DNA from: Xanthomonas sp. AM6
Lineage (GTDB): Bacteria > Pseudomonadota > Gammaproteobacteria > Xanthomonadales > Xanthomonadaceae
Assembly (NCBI RefSeq): GCF_025665335.1
Contig: NZ_CP106869.1
Span: 3,560,501 to 3,624,500, forward strand
Direction: 5' to 3'
Length of the DNA stretch: 64,000 nucleotides
Shown here: positions 43,976 to 55,388 of the stretch, piece by piece
Position numbering within the stretch: the stretch's first letter is position 1
Layout of the letters: each line of letters opens with the position of its first letter
Program-made: the position numbers and the translations under genes
Notes under the pieces: generated by a model
Databases searched by the model: none
Seen by the model: only the letters and a program-made list of their open reading frames with translations
What the model was told of the DNA's origin: nothing

Positions 43976-46195
43976 TCAGAAATTGGCGCGGAACTGCGCG
44001 CCGACGATGCGCGGATCGTTGATGAAGCCGGTGAGGTTGTTGAAGTCGATCGCACCGGTGGCGCGGATCTGGTTGGTGCAGTTGCGGCAGAACACCGACA
44101 CCTCGTACGCGCCGGCGCCCCAGTTGTAGCCGATCTTGGCGCCGCCCTCGAACAGCGGCTGGCCGACGAACTCGCGCGAGTCGTACAGGAAGAAGTTGAT
44201 CTCGCTGCGGTAGGACCAGTCGGTGTAGAAGAAGAACTCGGCGTCGTCGCCGACCGGGATGCCGTAGCGCAGCGTGGCGTTGCCCATCCACTTGGCCGCC
44301 TGCGGCAGCACGTTGCCGTCGATGATGGCATTGCCGGCGGCGTTGAGCGGATCGGTCACGGTGCAGGTGCGGCACACGCCGACCGACAGGGTCGGATCCT
44401 CGATGCGGGTCCAGTTGTAGGCGCCGCCCAGGGTGAAGCGCAGGTTCTGGGTCAGCAACGCTTCGAAGTCGAACTCGGCGCCGCGCGCCTTGGAGGTGTC
44501 GGCGTTGAGCAGGCGCACGTCGTTGGAGGTACCGCCGACCGCGGTCAGCTGCTGGTTCTTCACCCGGAAGTCGTAGACGTCGAAGCTGATGCGCGCGCGC
44601 TTGTCGAACAGGTCGGACTTGATGCCGATCTCGTAGGAATCCACGGTCTCCGGCGCGGCCACGGTCAGCGGCGCGGTCGCCGACGGCACGCCGAAGCTGG
44701 CGCCGCGGAAACCGCGCGCGGCACGGGCGTAGACGTTGACGTCGTCGTTGATGGCGAAGGTCGCGCTGAGGTCGCCGGTGACCTTGGAGTTGTCGGTGCT
44801 GCCGGTGGACGGCTCGAGCAGGGTGACGCGGTCCAGCGCCAGCACGTCGAAGGTCTTCTTGTCGTAGGTGTAGCGGATGCCGGCGCGCAGGTTCAGGCGA
44901 TCGGTCGCGGCGTAGTTCAGCGAGCCGAACGCCGCCCACGAGGTGTTGCGCTGGCGGGTCAGCTGGTAGCTGCTCAGATCGCCGCCGCCGAAGGTGTCGT
45001 AGGTGTAGTTCTCGCCTTCCACCGAATCGTGGAAGTAGTACAGGCCGGCCTGCCAGTTGAGCGGGCCTTCGTACTGCGATTCGGCGCGCAGCTCCTGCGA
45101 GTACTGGTCCAGGTTCTTGATGCCGCCGGCGGTTTCCACCGGGAACGCGATCACGCCCGGGCCGGACGGCGGCGCGAACACCGCGCCGTAGCCGCCGTCG
45201 ATGTCGCCGCGGCTGTAGTACTTGCCGATGCCCTCGTAGCCGGTGATCGAGTGCAGCACGATGTCGCCCAGGTCCCAGGTCAGGTTGACGCTGCCGCCGT
45301 AGGTCTGCAGTTCCTGGGTGTTGGCGCCGTCGATGGAGACCTTGTCCGGATCGAAGCCGGCGACCAGCTGGTTGCTGCCCGGCCGGAAGATGTTGGCGCG
45401 GAACAGCCGTGCGGTGCCGTCGAGGTGGCGCGCATGCGCGTTGAACAGCGCGCTGAAGTCCTCGCCGGGCTGGAACAGGAGCTGCACGCGCACCGCCGAG
45501 TCGGTGTAGCCCTCGAACGAACGGTCGTCGACGGTGTTGTCGACCCAGTCGTCGCGGCGCTGGCCCAGCGCCGACACGCGCGCGGCCCACTTGTCGCCCA
45601 TCGCCACGCTCAGGCCGGTTTCCATGGTCATGGTGCCGTAGGTGCCGTAGGACAGGCTGGCGTAGCCGTCGTTGGCGCCGATGGTCGGCTTGACCGAGTT
45701 GAACTTGACCACGCCGGCCGGCGTGTTGCGCCCGAACAGCGTGCCCTGCGGGCCGCGCAGCACTTCCAGGCCCTCCAGGTCGAAGATCGGGAAGCCCTTC
45801 AGGAACGCGTTCTCGGCCACCACGTCGTCGTAGATCAGCGACACCGGCTGTGAGGCGTAGGTGTTGAAGTCAGTGTTGCCGTAGCCGCGGATGTAGAAGC
45901 GCGGGAACACGCGGCCGTTGGAGGACTCGACGTTGAGGCTGGGCGCCTTGCCGGCCAGCACGCGCACGTCCGAACCGCTGGTGGCGATCGCGTCCAGGTA
46001 TTCCGGGCGCAGCACGCTGGCCGACACCGGCACGTCCTTGGAATCCTCCGAGCGCCGCTCGGCAGTGACCTTGACCGCATCCAGGCGGGCGATCCCGTCG
46101 GTGCCGTCGGCCTGTTGGGCGGCGGCGGAGAACGAGAGGGCGGAAACGACGGCTACGGCAAGTGCGCTGGCGCGCAGCGACCAACTGGCGGACAT
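43976..46195 (-). CDS. TonB-dependent outer-membrane receptor
   Basis: A 739-residue receptor with signal peptide (SLRASALAVAVVSALSFSAAAQQ), TonB-box-like region (about 40-50, AVKVTAERR), plug (YLDAIATSGSDVRVLAGKAPSLNVESSNGRVFPRF..., split by the barrel start at about 150; includes EGLEVLRGPQGTLFGRNTPAG), and a beta-barrel ending ...RIVGAQFRANF with the terminal Phe. Such receptors import large substrates using the TonB system. It lies before a nucleoside hydrolase gene, but the substrate is not implied strongly. A palindrome sits about 90 bp upstream. Confidence 0.95.
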   Translation of the reverse strand: MSASWSLRASALAVAVVSALSFSAAAQQADGTDGIARLDAVKVTAERRSEDSKDVPVSASVLRPEYLDAIATSGSDVRVLAGKAPSLNVESSNGRVFPRFYIRGYGNTDFNTYASQPVSLIYDDVVAENAFLKGFPIFDLEGLEVLRGPQGTLFGRNTPAGVVKFNSVKPTIGANDGYASLSYGTYGTMTMETGLSVAMGDKWAARVSALGQRRDDWVDNTVDDRSFEGYTDSAVRVQLLFQPGEDFSALFNAHARHLDGTARLFRANIFRPGSNQLVAGFDPDKVSIDGANTQELQTYGGSVNLTWDLGDIVLHSITGYEGIGKYYSRGDIDGGYGAVFAPPSGPGVIAFPVETAGGIKNLDQYSQELRAESQYEGPLNWQAGLYYFHDSVEGENYTYDTFGGGDLSSYQLTRQRNTSWAAFGSLNYAATDRLNLRAGIRYTYDKKTFDVLALDRVTLLEPSTGSTDNSKVTGDLSATFAINDDVNVYARAARGFRGASFGVPSATAPLTVAAPETVDSYEIGIKSDLFDKRARISFDVYDFRVKNQQLTAVGGTSNDVRLLNADTSKARGAEFDFEALLTQNLRFTLGGAYNWTRIEDPTLSVGVCRTCTVTDPLNAAGNAIIDGNVLPQAAKWMGNATLRYGIPVGDDAEFFFYTDWSYRSEINFFLYDSREFVGQPLFEGGAKIGYNWGAGAYEVSVFCRNCTNQIRATGAIDFNNLTGFINDPRIVGAQFRANF

Positions 46196-46635: not shown

Positions 46636-47826
46636 TCAGCAGGTGTCGCCCGGCACCCGCACCCAGCCTTCCATCAATACCCGCGCACTGCGGCTCATGA
46701 TCGCCCTGGTCACGGTCCACTGGCCGTCCACCTGCGTGGCTTCGGCGCCGACCCGCAAGGTGCCCGACGGGTGGCCGAAGCGCACCGCCTGGCGCGCGCC
46801 GCCGCCGGCCGCGCGGTTCACCAGCGTGCCCGGGATCGCCGCGGCGGTGCCGATCGCGACCGCGGCGGTGCCCATCATCGCGTGGTGCAGCTTGCCCATC
46901 GACATCGCCCGCACCAGCAGGTCGATGTCGGCGGCAGCCACCGGCTTGCCGCTGGAAGCGAGGTAGTCGGCCGGCGGCGCGACGAAGGCGACCTTGGGCG
47001 TGTGCTGGCGCGTGGCCGCCTCTTCCAGCGTCGCGATCAGGCCCATGCGCAGCGCGCCGTGCGCGCGGATGGTCTCGAACCTGGCCAGCGCCTGCGCATC
47101 GCCGTTGATCGCGTCCTGCAGTTCGGTGCCGCGGTAGCCCAGCGCCTGCGCGTCGAGGAAGATGGTCGGGATGCCGGCATTGATCAGGGTCGCCTCGAAG
47201 GTGCCGACGCCCGGCACCTCGAGCGCATCGACCAGGTTGCCGGTGGGGAACATCGCTCCGTCCGCGCCGTCCTCGTCGGCGGCCGGATCCAGGAACTCGA
47301 GCTGGATCTCGGCCGCGGGGAAGGTCACCCCGTCCAGTTCGAAATCGCCGCCTTCCTGCACCGCGCCGGCGGCCATCGGCACCTGCGCGAGGATGGTCTT
47401 GCCGATGTTGGCCTGCCAGATCCGCACCGTGGCCAGGCCGTCGTGCGGAATGCGCGCGGGGTCGATCATGCCGGCAGCGATCGCGAACGGCCCCACCGCC
47501 GCCGAGAGGTTGCCGCAGTTGCCGCTCCAGTCCACGAACGGGCGGTCGATCGCGACCTGGCCGAACAGGTAGTCCACGTCGTGGCCGGGACGCGTGCCCG
47601 GCGCCACGATCACCGCCTTGCTGGTGCTGGACGTGGCCCCGCCCATGCCATCGATCTGCTTGGCGTAGGGATCGGGGCTGCCGATCACCCGCAGCAGCAG
47701 CGCATCGCGCGCCGCGCCGGGCACCTGCGCGGCCGCGGGCAGGTCCTGCAGGCGGAAGAACACGCCTTTCGACGTGCCGCCGCGCATGTAGGTGGCGGGA
47801 ATGCGGAGCTGGGGAAGCTGGGACAT
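46636..47826 (-). CDS. prpF: PrpF, 2-methylaconitate cis-trans isomerase
   Basis: A DAP-epimerase-fold isomerase needed alongside AcnD in the methylcitrate cycle. The 396 residues include YMRGGTSKGVFF, IDGMGGATSSTSKAVIV, DWSGNCGNLSAAVGPFAI, with Cys and Lys pattern of the PrpF family, and QHTPKVAFVAPP. The last gene of the cluster: it is 30 bp after the SRPBCC gene. Its presence with acnD, and the lack of prpD, define the AcnD/PrpF variant of propionate breakdown. Confidence 0.95.
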   Translation of the reverse strand: MSQLPQLRIPATYMRGGTSKGVFFRLQDLPAAAQVPGAARDALLLRVIGSPDPYAKQIDGMGGATSSTSKAVIVAPGTRPGHDVDYLFGQVAIDRPFVDWSGNCGNLSAAVGPFAIAAGMIDPARIPHDGLATVRIWQANIGKTILAQVPMAAGAVQEGGDFELDGVTFPAAEIQLEFLDPAADEDGADGAMFPTGNLVDALEVPGVGTFEATLINAGIPTIFLDAQALGYRGTELQDAINGDAQALARFETIRAHGALRMGLIATLEEAATRQHTPKVAFVAPPADYLASSGKPVAAADIDLLVRAMSMGKLHHAMMGTAAVAIGTAAAIPGTLVNRAAGGGARQAVRFGHPSGTLRVGAEATQVDGQWTVTRAIMSRSARVLMEGWVRVPGDTC

Positions 47827-47856: not shown

Positions 47857-48318
47857 TCAGGGGGCGTCGGGAATCTCGGCCTCGACCAGCTGCGCCAGCA
47901 GGGTCAGCGACTCCTGCCAGCCGAGGTAGCAGAACTCGACCGGGATCTGTGCGGGGATGCCGTCCTGCACGATGTCCAGCTCGGTGCCGCAGGCCACCGC
48001 GCGCAGCTTGACCGTCACCTTCATCTCGCCCGGCAGGTCCGGGTTGTCGAACGTGTCGGTGTGGCGGATCAGCTCGCCCGGCACCAGTTCCAGGTAGGTG
48101 CCGCCGAAGGACTGGCTGGAACCGGTGCCCAGGTTGGTGAAGGACATCCGGTAGCTGCCGCCCACGCGCGCATCCAGCGCATGCACGGTGGCGACGAAGC
48201 CGTGCGGCGGCAGCCATTTGGCCAGCGCCGCCGGTTCCAGGAAGGCGCGGTAGATGCGCTCGGCCGGCGCGCGCAGGACGCGGTGCAGGCGGACGGTGCC
48301 GGGATTGCCATTGCTCAT
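47857..48318 (-). CDS. SRPBCC (AHSA1-like) domain protein
   Basis: A 153-residue protein of the START-like SRPBCC fold, with TVRLHRVLRAPAERIYRAFLEPAALAKWLPPHGF as the AHSA1-type opening. ATG 48318 is chosen since similarity begins at it. It is embedded between acnD and prpF in the same direction, an uncommon guest in a prp cluster. These proteins bind hydrophobic ligands or aid folding; no reaction can be assigned. It may merely be a passenger. Confidence 0.85.
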   Translation of the reverse strand: MSNGNPGTVRLHRVLRAPAERIYRAFLEPAALAKWLPPHGFVATVHALDARVGGSYRMSFTNLGTGSSQSFGGTYLELVPGELIRHTDTFDNPDLPGEMKVTVKLRAVACGTELDIVQDGIPAQIPVEFCYLGWQESLTLLAQLVEAEIPDAP

Positions 48319-48421
48319 GGTGATGTCCTCAGCGGTGATGGCGCGCGCAGGATGGCACGCGCTCATGACACCGACGAATGGGGCGGGCCGATTTCGACAC
48401 TGCCAAAAAATCCTGCCCGGA

Positions 48422-51034
48422 TCAGGCGGCGGACGCCTCCAGGAAATCCTGCGCGAAGCGCTGCAGCACGCCGCCGGCTTCGTAGATCGCCAGTTCCTCG
48501 GCGGTGTCCAGGCGGCAGATGACCGGCACGTCCAGGCGCTCGCCGGTCTTGCGGGTGATGGACAGGGTCAGCGTCGCGCCCGGGGTGCGCGCGCCGAGCA
48601 CGTCGAACAGCTCGCTGCCGTCGATGCCCAGGGTGGTGCGCGTGGTGCCGGGCTGGAACTCCAGCGGCAGCACGCCCATGCCGACCAGGTTGGTGCGGTG
48701 GATGCGCTCGAAGCCCTCGGCCACGATCGCCTCGACCCCGGCCAGGCGCACGCCCTTGGCCGCCCAGTCGCGCGAGGAGCCCTGCCCGTAGTCGGCGCCG
48801 GCGACGATCAGCAGCGGCTGCTTGCGCGCCATGTAGGTCTCGATCGCTTCCCACATCCGCATCACCTGCCCTTCCGGCTCCAGCCGGGTCAGCGAGCCGC
48901 GCTGGACCTGGCCATCGACCACGGCCATCTCGTTGAGCAGTTGCGGGTTGGCGAAGGTGGCGCGCTGCGCGGTGAGGTGGTCGCCGCGGTGGGTGGCGTA
49001 GGAATTGAAGTCCTCTTCCGGCACGCCCATCCGCGCCAGGTATTCGCCCGCGGCGCTGTCGGCCAGGATCGCGTTGGATGGGGACAGGTGGTCGGTGGTG
49101 ATGTTGTCGCCGAGCACCGCCAGCGCGCGCATGCCGCGCAGCGTGCGCGCGCCGGCCAGCGCGCCTTCCCAGTACGGCGGGCGGCGGATGTAGGTGCTGC
49201 GCTCGCGCCACGCGTACAGCGGCGCCACCTGCGCACCGGCCTGCGCGCTGCGCGCGAACATCGGCGCGTAGACCTGGCGGAACTGCTCGGGCTTGACGCT
49301 GGCGGCGACGATCGCGTCGATCTCTTCGTCGCTGGGCCACAGGTCCTTCAGGGTCACCGGCTGGCCGTCGCGATCCACGCCGAGCACGTCCTTCTCGATG
49401 TCGAAGCGGATGGTGCCGGCGATCGCGTACGCCACCACCAGCGGCGGCGAGGCCAGGAACGCCTGCTTGGCGTAGGGATGGATGCGCCCGTCGAAATTGC
49501 GGTTGCCCGACAGTACCGCGGTGGCGTACAGGTCGCGCTCGATCACCTCGCGCTGGATCGCCGGGTCCAGCGCGCCGCTCATGCCGTTGCAGGTGGTGCA
49601 GGCGAAGCCGACGATGCCGAAGCCGAGCCGCTCCAGCTCCGGCAACAGCCCGGAATCTTCCAGGTACAGTTGCACCGCCTTGGAGCCCGGCGCCAGCGAG
49701 GTCTTGACCCACGGCTTGCGGGCAAGCCCGCGCGCGTTGGCGTTGCGTGCCAGCAGGCCGGCGGCGATCACGTTGCGCGGGTTGCTGGTGTTGGTGCAGC
49801 TGGTGATCGCGGCGATGATCACCGCGCCGTCGGGCATCAGCCCCTGCGCCTGTTCGGCCTGGCCGGCTTGCAGCTTAGATGCGTCGGCGATGCCGCGCGC
49901 GGCCAGGTCGGACGTGGCCACGCGCTTGTGCGGATTCGACGGCCCGGCCATGTTGCGCACCACGCCGGACAGGTCGAAACGCAGCACGCGTTCGTACTGC
50001 GCCCGGGCCAGGTCGTCGGCCCACAACCCGGCGGCCTTGGCGTAGGTTTCCACCAGCGCCACCTGCGCGTCGTCGCGGCCGGTCAGCTTCAGGTAGTCGA
50101 TGGTCTGCCGGTCGATCGCGAACATCGCCGCGGTGGCGCCGAACTCGGGGGTCATGTTGGAGATCGTGGCGCGGTCGCCCAGGGTCAGCGCGGCGGCGCC
50201 TTCGCCGTGGAATTCCAGGTAGGCGCCGACCACTTTCTGCGCGCGCAGGAATTCGGTCAGCGCCAGCACCACGTCGGTGGCGGTGATGCCCGGCTGCGGC
50301 CGCCCGCCCAGTTCCACGCCGACGATGTCCGGCAGGCGCATCCACGATGCGCGCCCGAGCATCACGCTCTCCGCCTCCAGCCCGCCGACGCCGATCGCCA
50401 GCACGCCCAACGCGTCCACATGCGGGGTGTGGCTGTCGGTGCCCACACAGGTATCCGGGAACGCCACGCCGTCACGCACCTGCACCACCGGCGACATCTT
50501 CTCCAGGTTGATCTGGTGCATGATCCCGTTGCCCGGCGGGATCACGTCGACGTTCTCGAACGCGCGCTTGGTCCAGTCGATGAAGTGGAAGCGGTCTTCG
50601 TTGCGGCGGTCTTCCACCGCGCGGTTCTTGGCGAACGCGGCGCGGTCGAAGCCGCCGTATTCCACCGCCAGCGAATGGTCCACGATCAACTGGGTCGGCA
50701 CCACCGGATTGACCTGCGCCGGATCCCCGCCCTGCTCGGCGATCGCATCGCGCAGCCCGGCCAGGTCCACCAGCGCGGTTTGGCCGAGGATGTCGTGGCA
50801 CACCACCCGCGCCGGGAACCAGGGGAAATCCAGGTCGCGGCGGCGCTCGATCAGCTGCGTGAGCGAGGCGTCCAGCGTGGCCGGATCGCAGCGCCGCACC
50901 AGGTTCTCGGCGAACACCCGCGAGGTGTACGGCAGCGTGGCATAGGCGTCCGGACGGATCGCATCGACCGCGGCGCGCGCGTCGAAGAAATCCAGCGAGG
51001 TGCCCGGCAGGGGTTTGCGGTAGTGGCTGTTCAT
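48422..51034 (-). CDS. acnD: AcnD, 2-methylcitrate dehydratase (Fe/S-dependent, aconitase-like)
   Basis: Dehydrates 2-methylcitrate in the methylcitrate cycle, with PrpF acting on its product. The 870-residue aconitase-family protein has the [4Fe-4S] cysteines in SCTNTSNPRN (first) and CTTCNGMSG (pair). The C-terminal swivel domain starts at about residue 690. The N-terminus MNSHYRKPLPGTSLDFFDARAAVDAI resembles AcnD rather than AcnA or AcnB. It is placed after prpC with a 166-bp gap that contains a G-rich intergenic repeat-like string, and before the SRPBCC gene. Confidence 0.96.
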   Translation of the reverse strand: MNSHYRKPLPGTSLDFFDARAAVDAIRPDAYATLPYTSRVFAENLVRRCDPATLDASLTQLIERRRDLDFPWFPARVVCHDILGQTALVDLAGLRDAIAEQGGDPAQVNPVVPTQLIVDHSLAVEYGGFDRAAFAKNRAVEDRRNEDRFHFIDWTKRAFENVDVIPPGNGIMHQINLEKMSPVVQVRDGVAFPDTCVGTDSHTPHVDALGVLAIGVGGLEAESVMLGRASWMRLPDIVGVELGGRPQPGITATDVVLALTEFLRAQKVVGAYLEFHGEGAAALTLGDRATISNMTPEFGATAAMFAIDRQTIDYLKLTGRDDAQVALVETYAKAAGLWADDLARAQYERVLRFDLSGVVRNMAGPSNPHKRVATSDLAARGIADASKLQAGQAEQAQGLMPDGAVIIAAITSCTNTSNPRNVIAAGLLARNANARGLARKPWVKTSLAPGSKAVQLYLEDSGLLPELERLGFGIVGFACTTCNGMSGALDPAIQREVIERDLYATAVLSGNRNFDGRIHPYAKQAFLASPPLVVAYAIAGTIRFDIEKDVLGVDRDGQPVTLKDLWPSDEEIDAIVAASVKPEQFRQVYAPMFARSAQAGAQVAPLYAWRERSTYIRRPPYWEGALAGARTLRGMRALAVLGDNITTDHLSPSNAILADSAAGEYLARMGVPEEDFNSYATHRGDHLTAQRATFANPQLLNEMAVVDGQVQRGSLTRLEPEGQVMRMWEAIETYMARKQPLLIVAGADYGQGSSRDWAAKGVRLAGVEAIVAEGFERIHRTNLVGMGVLPLEFQPGTTRTTLGIDGSELFDVLGARTPGATLTLSITRKTGERLDVPVICRLDTAEELAIYEAGGVLQRFAQDFLEASAA

Positions 51035-51200: not shown

Positions 51201-52367
51201 TCAGCTGCGGCGGTCGATCGGCACGAACGCCTGGTCTTCCGGCCCGGTGTAGTTCGCGCTGGGGCGGATGATCTTGCCGTCGATGCGCTGCTCGATGATG
51301 TGCGCGCTCCAGCCGGCGGTGCGCGCGATCACGAACAACGGGGTGAACATCGCCGTCGGCACGCCCATCATGTGGTAGCTGACCGCGCTGAACCAGTCCA
51401 GGTTCGGGAACATCTTCTTGATCTCCCACATCACCGTCTCCAGGCGCTCGGCGATGTCGTACATCTTGCGGCTGCCCTGCGCGTCGGACAGTTCGCGCGC
51501 CACGTCCTTGATCACCTGGTTGCGCGGATCGGACACCGTGTACACCGGGTGGCCGAAGCCGATGATCACTTCCTTGCGCTCGACCCGCGCGCGGATGTCC
51601 GCTTCCGCCTCGTCCGGCGTGTCGTAGCGCTTCTGCACCTCGAACGCGACCTCGTTGGCGCCGCCGTGCTTGGGCCCGCGCAGCGCGCCGATGCCGCCGG
51701 CGATGGCGCTGTACATGTCGCTGCCGGTGCCGGCGATGACCCGGCAGGCGAAGGTGGAGGCGTTGAACTCGTGCTCGGCGTACAGGATCAGGCTGGTGTG
51801 CATCGCCTGCACCCATTCCTCGTGCGGCTTGAAACCGTGCAGCAGGTGCAGGAAATGCCCGCCGATCGAATCGTCGTCGGTCTCCACCTCGATGCGCTTG
51901 CCGTTGTGGCTGTAGTGGTACCAGTACAGCAGCATCGACCCCAGCGACGCCATCAGCTTGTCGGCGATGTCGCGCGCGCCGGGATGGTTGTGGTCGTCCT
52001 TCTCCGGCTGCACGCAGCCCAGCACCGACACGCCGGTGCGCATCACGTCCATCGGATGCGCCGACGGCGGCAGCTGTTCCAGCGCCGCCTTGACCGCGGC
52101 CGGCACCCCGCGCAGCGAGCGCAGCTTGGCCTTGTAGCCGCGCAGCTCGCTGTTGCTGGGTAGCTTGCCGTGCACCAGCAGGTAGGCGATCTCCTCGAAC
52201 TGGCTGCTGCGCGCCAGGTCCAGGATGTCGTAGCCGCGGTAGTGCAGGTCGTTGCCGCTGCGGCCGACCGTGCACAGCGCGGTGTTGCCGGCGGCGGTGC
52301 CGGACAGGGCCACCGATTTCTTCGGCTTGAAGGCCGGTGCGGACTGGCTGGCGGTGGTGTCGTTCAT
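51201..52367 (-). CDS. prpC: PrpC, 2-methylcitrate synthase
   Basis: Condenses propionyl-CoA with oxaloacetate. The 388 residues contain the citrate-synthase catalytic set: GPKHGGANE (His), GFGHPVY (His) and FPNLDWFS (Asp). The short form with [19 protein letters not shown] at the start fits PrpC rather than housekeeping GltA. It lies 46 bp after prpB and is second in the operon. Confidence 0.96.
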
Positions 52368-52413: not shown

Positions 52414-53301
52414 TCATGCGCCCTTACCGGCGAACAGCGCGTCCAGCCGCTGCTCGAAGGCGTGGTAGCCGATACGTTCGTACAGTTCCTCGCGGGTCTG
52501 CATCGTCGCCAGCACGCCCTGCTGGTGGCCGTCGCGGCGGATCGCGGTGTACACCGCCTCGGCGGCCTTGTTGGCGGCGCGGAACGCCGACAGCGGGAAC
52601 AGCTGGATCGCCACCCCGGCCGAGGCCAGTTCGTCGCGGGTGAACAGCGGGGTCTTGCCGAATTCGGTGATGTTGGCCAGCACCGGCACCTTCACCGCGT
52701 CGACGAAGCGGCGGTAGGTGTCCAGGTCGTAGGCGGCCTCGGCGAAGATGCCGTCGGCGCCGGCCTCCACGCAGGCGATGGCGCGCTCGATCGCCGCGTC
52801 CACGCCGTCCACCTGGATCGCGTCGGTGCGCGCGATCAGGAAGAAGTCGGCATCGGTCTTGGCATCGGCCGCGGCCTTGACCCGGTCGGCCATCTCGCCC
52901 TGGCTCACGATCTCCTTGCCGGGGCGGTGGCCGCAGCGCTTGGCGCCGACCTGGTCCTCGATGTGGCAGGCGGCCGCCCCGGCCTTGATCAGCGACTTGA
53001 TGGTGCGCTCGATGTTGAACGCGCTGGGGCCGAAGCCGGTGTCGATGTCCACCAGCAGCGGCAGAGCGCATACGTCGGTGATGCGGCGCACGTCGATCAG
53101 CACGTCGTCCAGGGTGTTGATGCCCAGGTCCGGCAGGCCCAGCGAGCCGGCGGCGACGCCGCCGCCGGACAGGTAGATGGCCTGGTAGCCGGCGCGCTGC
53201 GCCAGCAGCGCATGGTTGGCGTTGATCGCGCCGATCACCTGCAGCGGCGACTCGGCGGCCAGCGCGGCGCGGAAACGGGCGCCGGCGGAAACGTGCGACA
53301 T
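52414..53301 (-). CDS. prpB: PrpB, 2-methylisocitrate lyase
   Basis: Cleaves 2-methylisocitrate to pyruvate and succinate. ATG 53301 follows GGAG at good spacing and yields 295 residues. Hallmarks are [23 protein letters not shown], and the catalytic loop [13 protein letters not shown]. It is first of the prp operon; its promoter region is shared with the divergent citrate-synthase-like regulator gene and holds a 17-bp palindrome. Confidence 0.96.
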
Positions 53302-53387
53302 GGCGAACTCCTGAGCGAGGGCGGCGGCCCGCACGGGCCGTTCCGCGATGGGCGCCAATCTGTCACCATCGCCCCAGCCGATCAATC

Positions 53388-53404
53388 TTGATTCAATGAA
53401 TCAA
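53388..53404. promoter_or_regulatory. 17-bp palindrome in the prpB/regulator divergent promoter region
   Basis: TTGATTCA-A-TGAATCAA is a perfect odd palindrome, 17 bp before the divergent regulator start and 87 bp before prpB. A smaller repeat, ATCAA-TC-TTGAT, overlaps its left edge (53381-53392). It is the obvious candidate operator for prp control. Confidence 0.65.
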
Positions 53405-53421
53405 CCTATCAGCGGATCCAC

Positions 53422-54657
53422 ATGTCCCCTGCCGCCGACCGCAACCTGATCTCCGCCGCCGAGGCCTGCGCCCTGCTCGGCATCAGCAGCGCCACGCTGT
53501 ACGCCTATGTGAGCCGCGGCCTGCTCAGTTCGCGCGCCGGCGCCGACCACCGCAGCCGCGCCTACCTGCGCGCGGAGGTGGAACGGCTGGCGCAGCGCAA
53601 GCGCGTCGGCCGCGGCGCGGCGCGCGGCGCGGCGCAGAGCCTGGACCGCGGCCTGCCGGTGCTGGAGACGCGCATCTCGCTGATCCGCCCCGACAGCCCC
53701 TACTACCGCGGGCGCTCGGCGGTGGCCGCGGTGCGCGAGGGCGCCGGCCTGGAGGACATCGCGCGGCTGCTGTGGGAGTGCATGGACGAAGACCCGTTCG
53801 CCAGCGCCCCCGCCGCGCCCTGGCCGGCGCGCGTGGCGCCGCTGGCCGGCGACGCCACGCTGCCGCCGCTGGAGCGCGCCATGGCCTGCATCCCGCTGCT
53901 GGCGCTGGAGCTGCGCCAGCCGCTCAACGCCGCGCCGGCGGTGCGCCGCGAGATCGCCGCCACCTTGCTGCGGCAGAACGCCGCGCTGCTGGTCGGCACC
54001 CAGCCGGACGTGCAGCCGGTGCATCGCCTGATCGCCGACCACTGGCGCCCGGGCGATGCCGACTTCGCCGAACTGGTGCGTGCCATCCTGGTGCTGTGCG
54101 CCGACCACGAACTCAACGTCTCGGCCTTCGCCGCGCGCGTGGTCGCCTCCACCGGCGCGCCGCTGCACGCCACCGTCAGCGCCGGCCTGGCCGCGCTGTC
54201 CGGCCCGCGCCACGGCGGCGCCACCGCCCGCGCCCATGCCCTGCTGCGCGACGCGCAGGAGGCCGCCGACCCGGCGGCCTTCATCGCCGAACGCTGGCAG
54301 CGCGGCGACGACCTGCCCGGCTTCCACCACGCCCTCTACCCGGACGGCGACCCGCGCGCGGCCGAAGTGCTGCGCCTGCTGCGCGAACGCTGCGGCCACC
54401 ATCCCCAGATGCGGCACGTGGAAACGGTGCTGGCCGCAGCCCAGGACTGCAGCGGCCAGGCGCCCAACATCGACGGCATGCTCGCGGCGCTCTGCCTCAT
54501 CCACGACCTGCCCGCCGCCCACGCCCTGGTGCTGTTCGCCGCCGCCCGCCTGTCCGGCTGGCTGGCCCACGCGCTGGAGCAGCAGGCGCTGGGCAAGCTG
54601 ATCCGCCCGCGGGCGCGCTATGCCGGGGTGATGCCCGAGGGCGCGGCGCCGGGCTGA
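53422..54657 (+). CDS. Helix-turn-helix/citrate synthase fusion, candidate prp regulator
   Basis: A 411-residue protein. The N-terminal segment (about 8-60, LISAAEACALLGISSATLYAYVSRGLL) is an excisionase/MerR-like helix-turn-helix; the rest is a citrate-synthase fold. The three catalytic residues of the citrate synthase family remain: His264 in GPRHGGA, His303 in HHALYPDGDPRA and Asp351 in PNIDGML. So it could bind or turn over acyl-CoA/oxaloacetate. It is divergent from prpB across a short region with a perfect palindrome, in the position where many bacteria place prpR or a GntR regulator. A regulatory role is inferred. Whether it is also an enzyme is open. Confidence 0.85.
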   Translation: MSPAADRNLISAAEACALLGISSATLYAYVSRGLLSSRAGADHRSRAYLRAEVERLAQRKRVGRGAARGAAQSLDRGLPVLETRISLIRPDSPYYRGRSAVAAVREGAGLEDIARLLWECMDEDPFASAPAAPWPARVAPLAGDATLPPLERAMACIPLLALELRQPLNAAPAVRREIAATLLRQNAALLVGTQPDVQPVHRLIADHWRPGDADFAELVRAILVLCADHELNVSAFAARVVASTGAPLHATVSAGLAALSGPRHGGATARAHALLRDAQEAADPAAFIAERWQRGDDLPGFHHALYPDGDPRAAEVLRLLRERCGHHPQMRHVETVLAAAQDCSGQAPNIDGMLAALCLIHDLPAAHALVLFAAARLSGWLAHALEQQALGKLIRPRARYAGVMPEGAAPG

Positions 54658-54761: not shown

Positions 54762-54779
54762 GGTGTACAAATGTACACC
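54762..54779. promoter_or_regulatory. LexA2-type SOS operator
   Basis: GGTGTACA-AA-TGTACACC is an inverted repeat with perfect eight-base arms, ending one base before the lexA2 ATG. Its form is like the known LexA2-type box of imuA-imuB-dnaE2 cassettes in Xanthomonas and Pseudomonas. It probably autoregulates the entire cassette. Confidence 0.85.
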
Positions 54780-55388
54780 ATGGATACCCTCTCCCCACAA
54801 CGCGCCGCCATCCTCGCCTACGTCCACGACTGCGCCGAGCAGGCCGGGCGGCCGCCGTCCCTGGCCGAGATCGCCGAGCGCTTCGGCTTCGCCTCGCGCA
54901 ATGCGGCGCGCAAGCACGTGCAGGCGCTGGTCGAGGCCGGGCTGCTCGAGCATGTGCCGCAGCAGGCGCGCAGCCTGCGACCGGCGCAGGCGCAACCGCG
55001 CGGCGGGCTGATGCGGCTGCCGGTGCTGGGCCGGGTCGCCGCCGGCGCGCCGATCGGCGCCGACATCGGCCTGGACCAGCAGCTGCGCCTGGACCGCGCG
55101 CTGTTCGCGCTGCGCCCGGACTACCTGCTGCGCGTGCAGGGCGATTCGATGATCGACGACGGCATCCTCGACGGCGACCTGGTCGGGGTGCGGCGCAGCG
55201 CCGAGGCGCGCAACGGCCAGATCGTGGTGGCGCGGCTGGACGGGGAGCTCACCATCAAGCGCTACCGCCACGATGGCGCGCGCATCCAGTTGCTGCCGCG
55301 CAATCCGGCCTATGCGCCGATCGTGGTGCAGCCGGGGCAGGACTTCGCCATCGAAGGGCAGTACTGCGGCCTGATCCGGCAAGGCTGA
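54780..55388 (+). CDS. lexA2: LexA2, SOS repressor of the mutagenesis cassette
   Basis: A 202-residue repressor. The winged helix (about 1-65, SLAEIAERFGFASRNAARKHVQALVEAGLL) is followed by the self-cleavage domain: Ala88-Gly89 in RVAAGAP, Ser123 in GDSM and Lys160 in LTIKR. ATG 54780 begins the domain and directly follows the operator. ATG 54771 inside the operator would add three residues. No ribosome-binding site is clear. It overlaps imuA by one base (TGATG). It is the second LexA typical of Xanthomonas, the first of the cassette's four genes. Confidence 0.94.
   Translation: MDTLSPQRAAILAYVHDCAEQAGRPPSLAEIAERFGFASRNAARKHVQALVEAGLLEHVPQQARSLRPAQAQPRGGLMRLPVLGRVAAGAPIGADIGLDQQLRLDRALFALRPDYLLRVQGDSMIDDGILDGDLVGVRRSAEARNGQIVVARLDGELTIKRYRHDGARIQLLPRNPAYAPIVVQPGQDFAIEGQYCGLIRQG

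Follow-up and report, generated by a model that had tools for sequence, protein, structure and literature searches.

A citrate synthase fused to a helix-turn-helix as a predicted cluster-specific regulator at the prp operon of Xanthomonas

Results

The window, a 64,000-nucleotide stretch of the genome of Xanthomonas sp. AM6 (4.9 Mb, one contig), contains a gene for a 411-residue protein in which a helix-turn-helix (HTH) precedes a citrate synthase domain (53422..54657, plus strand; open reading frame and Pfam). Divergent from it, all on the minus strand, lie the genes of the prp operon: prpB for 2-methylisocitrate lyase (52414..53301; TIGR02317, 409 bits, cut-off 354), prpC for 2-methylcitrate synthase (51201..52367; NF009006, 723 bits, cut-off 550), acnD for 2-methylisocitrate dehydratase (48422..51034; TIGR02333, 1766 bits, cut-off 1420) and prpF for 2-methylaconitate isomerase (46636..47826; TIGR02334, 762 bits, cut-off 441). 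With all four above their NCBIfam cut-offs, the divergent arrangement proposed in an earlier, sequence-only reading of this DNA is borne out. That reading had placed the gene at 53302..54657; its end stands, and its start moves to 53422, where the frame opens, 53302 having taken in the intergenic stretch. Beside the fusion, the citrate synthase family is represented in the host genome by prpC and one plain citrate synthase, and no PrpR_N domain was found anywhere in this genome. Between acnD and prpF, a 169-residue open reading frame (47857-48366) gave no NCBIfam match and has an SRPBCC-type look by eye; downstream of prpF and in the same direction, a TonB-dependent receptor gene was recognised by eye (43976-46195).

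The fusion of a citrate synthase to an HTH, also claimed earlier, is confirmed by two Pfam matches above cut-off. HTH_17 spans residues 10-60, with 31.8 bits against a cut-off of 27, and Citrate_synt (PF00285) spans residues 76-397 (193.5 bits, cut-off 27), the latter covering positions 3-357 of the 357 of the profile, which places the whole domain in the citrate synthase fold. All 51 aligned fusion members match HTH_17 with an E-value of 0.01 or lower. The window protein missed MerR (21.0 bits, cut-off 28.2) and MerR_1 (19.6 bits, cut-off 21.6), gave no Pfam match to PrpR_N (PF06506) and fell far below the cut-offs of two enzyme models (115.9 of 550 bits for NF009006, 130.2 of 421.3 for TIGR01800). 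An AlphaFold2 model made with 51 sequences (mean pLDDT 88.7) has a winged HTH at about residues 8-60, a helix to about residue 75 and then the citrate synthase fold of residues 76-397, with a hinge at 67-79 where pLDDT is under 50. Pfam and the model thus both give an HTH plus an enzyme-like domain, the architecture of enzyme-derived regulators of the BzdR kind. The top Foldseek matches to the model were Mycobacterium tuberculosis methylcitrate synthase, the PrpC proteins of Pseudomonas aeruginosa and Salmonella, and M. tuberculosis CitA, with query-normalised TM-scores of 0.61-0.68 among the 50 matches listed. None of the solved chains at E 1e-20 or better in a profile search spans the HTH part. 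Among the matches listed, the closest named relative is the fusion of Xanthomonas sp. NCPPB 1128 (87%).

The claim that the three catalytic residues are kept holds at the very numbers given, His264, His303 and Asp351, and five further active-site residues (His229, Asn232, Arg312, Arg376 and Arg395) are kept as well. We take the roles of catalytic His, His and Asp, and of oxaloacetate-binding His and Arg, to apply at these positions of the fusion. All eight residues are present in 79 of 79 relatives among the matches listed (39 near, 40 distant) and in 24 of 26 proteins of a separate draw over the phylum, that is, in 103 of 105 over both sets, no protein of one set being identical to any of the other. 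His303 is replaced by Asn in L199 and by Gln in L210. In three examined loci (L112, L120 and L130), the divergent citrate synthase has Glu at the position of Asp351 and the adjoining fusion keeps Asp.

In a tree of 60 rows, for which the program warned of long branches, a branch (100/100) separates the 34 fusions from the other rows, and another (98/95) sets the prp-linked fusions apart. An origin by duplication of the neighbouring prpC found no support, the fusions forming a clade of their own in this tree, to which the long-branch warning applies.

The sequence-only reading further described a 17-bp palindrome shared by the fusion and the prp operon. This palindrome, TTGATTCAATGAATCAA, is present at 53388-53404. 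Perfect palindromes of the 8+1+8 form are not rare in the window, where there are 10, and the palindrome alone therefore proves little. Comparison of loci revealed a conserved unit that is longer and offset, TCAATCTTGAT-N7-ATCAA (also written TCAATNTTGAT-N7-ATCAA), which lies at 53382-53404, contains the palindrome and is our candidate operator. Among 30 family loci, the perfect 17-mer is confined to the six of the window's genus (L005-L010), and outside that genus only the outer TTGAT and ATCAA are kept, within the longer block. The core of the shared palindrome is thus family-wide, and the palindrome as the operator itself was rejected, its conservation being limited to these outer parts. 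The 17-mer has no second copy in the 4.9-Mb genome with up to 3 mismatches allowed. A multi-site regulon in this genome was also rejected: the conserved pattern has one exact site there, followed by 11 with 3 mismatches each, against 3 in the reversed control.

Read towards prpB, the 38 prp-linked loci among the matches listed share TTGATC (38 of 38), 17 nt and nA(G/C)AnT. In the window these elements correspond to a putative -35, TTGATC, which overlaps the candidate operator (53380..53385, minus strand), and, 17 nt away, to a putative extended -10, TGn-CAGATT (53357..53362, minus strand). The second place of the putative -10 is A and the sixth T in 38 of 38 loci, and the T and G just before it are present in 36 and 37 of 38. 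A stricter sigma-70 scan of the stretch between fusion and prpB gave no promoter match. We read the conserved elements as a putative extended -10 promoter of prp whose -35 would lie inside the operator.

The distribution of the site was followed in 149 genomes of the family, 31 of which have the fusion (on one contig in 30, split across two in G104). The exact pattern used for these counts, TCAATNTTGATN{6,8}ATCAA, has a single match, with a spacer of 7, in every one of the 31 fusion genomes, and it also occurs in one of the 118 fusion-free genomes (G025, spacer 8); the reversed pattern had no match in any of the 149. In 30 of the 31 genomes, the exact site is 5-33 bp upstream of the fusion's aligned start; in G087 (locus L032) the distance is 223 bp, and the site is on the prpB side. 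A second, degenerate operator-like copy with 4 mismatches to the palindrome adjoins the fusion in the same intergenic stretch of L032. Since every one of the 149 genomes has prpB (146 over cut-off) and those with the fusion have the site, the site follows the regulator and not the pathway. A matrix built from 38 prp-linked loci among the matches listed (L069-L108 without L089 and L096) scored 41 to 63 in 30 fusion loci, against -37 to 10 in fusion-free prpB loci, which came from 68 of the 118 genomes.

Sixteen of the 149 family genomes have PrpR_N, in each case divergent from prpB, at a distance of up to 0.7 kb in 14 of them and of 3.6 kb in two. None of these is among the 31 fusion genomes (P 0.019, uncorrected for kinship), and the comparison agrees with the earlier view that the fusion occupies the place of prpR. 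Kinship among the genomes makes this mutual exclusion weak evidence. One genus has both kinds, the fusion in G029 and PrpR_N in G071, G098, G124 and G145. In 102 of the 149 genomes prpB occurs with neither protein; a dedicated regulator is therefore not essential.

Fusions beyond the family were collected by scanning named genomes with seed peptides, keeping the best 80 of at least 80 loci (L069-L148). Of L069-L108, all 39 loci with upstream DNA among the matches listed have the fusion divergent from prpB-prpC; L096 is left out of the count as its contig ends there. The distant loci L109-L148, at 42-47% identity, belong to Rhizobiaceae, Reyranella, Roseibium, Paraburkholderia, Herbaspirillum and others among the matches listed, and none of those listed has a prp operon beside the fusion. 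In every one of the 40 distant loci listed, the best matrix match of the whole locus is no more than 160 bp upstream of the fusion, and each of these 40 matches scores above the best of five shuffles; in L120, L121, L123, L127, L138, L141 and L148 it is the same element on the other strand. The seed peptides include the recognition-helix stretch TLYAYVSRG, whose invariance in the distant loci is partly due to selection.

An independent, profile-based draw of 398 genomes over the phylum, made without seed peptides, answers this seed bias in part. It found the fusion in 50 of the 398 genomes. The exact pattern is present in 40 of these 50 and missing from 10, against 9 of the 348 others, and of 50 exact matches, 39 are at most 200 bp upstream of a fusion. 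A matrix site precedes 37 of 44 further fusions of this draw and is missing before seven (L210, L233, L234, L235, L236, L237 and L238). One genome, G816, has two fusions (L198 and L233) and two exact sites, the second of which lies 2.9 kb before the second fusion and does not adjoin it. L234 and L235, from one genus, have a changed HTH helix, lack the operator and have in common an upstream palindrome, TTTACA-N4-TGTAAA, which is perhaps a changed operator. Overall, the comparison strongly supports the use of the candidate operator by the fusion.

Neighbours were surveyed in 86 loci that do not belong to the prp group (L109-L148 and L193-L238), with queries drawn from these same loci. Facing the fusion, 55 loci have a second citrate synthase, 19 a class III CoA-transferase and one prpB, and in 11 the divergent gene was unmatched; among checked representatives, three of three were citrate synthases of the NF009005 type and four of four PF02515 CoA-transferases. 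L227 and L232 have the site beside what looks by eye like a 2-hydroxyacid dehydrogenase gene, and L210, L236, L237 and L238 lack it beside a gene judged by eye to encode a cation efflux protein; L210 and L236-L238 may be a branch with another role. In Agrobacterium fabrum C58, ATU_RS25370 of the At plasmid encodes the fusion; the site precedes its aligned start by 50 bp, and the gene divergent from it, ATU_RS25365, carries the annotation citrate synthase/methylcitrate synthase. The Agrobacterium and Chelatococcus plasmid records that we found annotate the fusion itself as 'citrate synthase family protein' or 'citrate/2-methylcitrate synthase'.

Discussion

Genome comparison shows a fusion with a conserved candidate operator, present once per genome, paired divergently with prp, exclusive with PrpR and with its active site kept. 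As a whole, these observations are best explained, and in our judgement probably correctly, by a local, cluster-specific transcription factor that derives from citrate synthase and replaces PrpR. The N-terminal winged HTH would bind the conserved operator (53382-53404), which sits just upstream of the fusion's start codon and overlaps the putative -35 of prp, and the fusion would so control itself and prpB-prpC-acnD-prpF. Occupation of this site should shut off transcription of the fusion and also influence that of prp. The C-terminal domain, with its active site intact, would be the sensor, the presumed ligand being either oxaloacetate plus an acyl-CoA, here probably propionyl-CoA, or (methyl)citrate. 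Citrate synthase has a well-known closing movement, and the sensor could make use of it because the machinery for oxaloacetate and acyl-CoA is kept: ligand binding would close the two citrate synthase subdomains and change the spacing of the HTH pair. We picture a protein that represses both its own gene and prp and is released when ligand is present, in PrpR's stead. As to the sign of control, which we infer, repression of prp is slightly preferred to activation. Some results speak against the regulator reading: the sigma-70 scan without a promoter match, the fusions that lack the site and the nine other genomes that have it, the distance of the exact site in G087, the replaced His303 of L199 and L210, the seven best matches on the other strand, the 11 unmatched neighbours, the genomes with prpB and neither protein, and the induction of X. 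citri prp by propionate in the absence of PrpR.

Activation of prp is the strongest alternative, although we consider it rather less likely than not to be the case. The liganded protein, bound at the -35 and upstream of it, would then recruit RNA polymerase to a weak prp promoter, and would repress only itself. The operator does cover the -35 and extend upstream of it, and its closeness to the fusion's own start would suit self-repression; neither TTGATC, the putative -35, nor CAGATT, the putative -10, comes close to consensus, but the TG before the -10 is nearly invariant. The overlap with the -35 is, however, equally compatible with repression.

It is tempting to think of a catalytic transcription factor, an idea we regard as unlikely. 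Slow condensation of acyl-CoA with oxaloacetate would take place in one ancient family with a shared operator, and the closed or product-bound state would set DNA binding. If so, the switch would read flux, both substrates at once, and not one metabolite; a single family over Lysobacterales, Alphaproteobacteria and Burkholderiales would now be annotated as plain citrate synthase, and one operator would serve neighbouring genes of about five kinds.

A working (methyl)citrate synthase with a metabolic role, to which the HTH is a minor addition, seems improbable to us. Conservation of all eight residues, the catalytic Asp included, in 103 of 105 proteins is what such an enzyme would lead one to expect. 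However, the operator tracks the HTH fusion and not plain citrate synthases, the genome encodes PrpC and a plain citrate synthase in any case, and the protein stays far under the enzyme-model cut-offs (116 of 550 bits for NF009006, 130 of 421 for TIGR01800). The element contains a putative -35 and AT-rich stretches are conspicuous in GC-rich genomes, and yet it is highly improbable that it belongs to another regulator or is mere AT-rich promoter, with the HTH binding elsewhere or not at all, given that it tracks the fusion and not prp (present in all 31 genomes with the fusion and in 1 of the 118 without it, with prpB in all 149), stays with the fusion when the neighbour is another citrate synthase or a CoA-transferase, and is missing from L234 and L235 (one genus), whose helix is changed and which share another palindrome.

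The sequence-only reading had proposed an enzyme-like metabolite switch that regulates prp. On the comparative evidence, a DNA-binding regulator at the place of prpR is the part of this proposal that finds support; regulation of prp as such is too narrow, the same fusion and operator facing other genes elsewhere. Because all fusion neighbourhoods share acyl-CoA or oxaloacetate/citrate chemistry, we place the common ligand in that chemistry, and a ligand common to all settings (oxaloacetate, an acyl-CoA or a citrate) is more likely than propionyl-CoA alone.

Several known systems resemble the fusion in part. Its fold is that of PrpC and of CitA-type citrate synthases, from which it differs by the added HTH, its own clade (100/100) and its scores under the enzyme-model cut-offs. 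A winged HTH is common to the MerR family and the fusion, although the latter stays under the MerR and MerR_1 cut-offs. MerR promoters have their operator between -35 and -10, in a spacer of 19-20 bp, whereas the candidate operator of the fusion would lie over the -35, in a putative promoter with a 17-bp spacing. The nearest precedent is BzdR of Azoarcus sp. CIB (PMC3602430), a pathway regulator that also joins an N-terminal HTH to an enzyme-derived sensor. BzdR combines an HTH-XRE with a shikimate-kinase-like domain and answers to an acyl-CoA, benzoyl-CoA; its sensor domain shows no shikimate kinase activity. Unlike BzdR, the fusion belongs to another HTH family and another enzyme fold, and its active-site residues are all kept.

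PrpR of the sigma-54 (Fis) type is likewise divergent from prpB, in all 16 genomes having it, but it is an unrelated protein, the fusion being without PrpR_N, and it uses a different site in X. citri. A study of X. citri (PMC12153269) describes PrpR as a prp repressor acting on a palindrome before prpB, GTTGCAA-N2-TTGCAAC, and reports that induction of prp by propionate persists without PrpR; some other control must therefore exist there. The Caulobacter crescentus paralogs CitB and CitC are neighbouring citrate synthases, like the pair of fusion and citrate synthase in Alphaproteobacteria, and CitB complements an E. coli gltA mutant and CitC does not (PMC7083601). A link between these paralogs and the fusion pair may be suggested by analogy.

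In the open-access literature searched, we found no published function for an HTH-citrate synthase fusion, and nothing relevant under the name PrpQ. The earlier statement that the fusion is known in databases and has no settled function agrees with this search and with the existing database names. A study of malonate and propionate regulons by Suvorova and others (J Bacteriol, 2012) reportedly predicts regulators that could include the fusion. With its arrangement already in databases and a mechanism that would resemble that of BzdR, we file the fusion among enzyme-derived regulators. The comparison predicts that 'citrate synthase family proteins' of the fusion type are transcription factors, and it gives their operator to the base together with neighbouring targets. 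If true, the fusion would join BzdR as a second example of an enzyme recruited to sense its source pathway, here with the active site intact.

Beyond the fusion, the window carries a second lexA-type gene (TIGR00498) at 54780-55388, directly preceded by a perfect palindrome, GGTGTACA-AA-TGTACACC (54762-54779). The palindrome at 53388-53404 was considered as a LexA box and rejected, a different palindrome standing before lexA2. Frames resembling imuA, imuB and dnaE2 by eye follow this gene, up to 60655.
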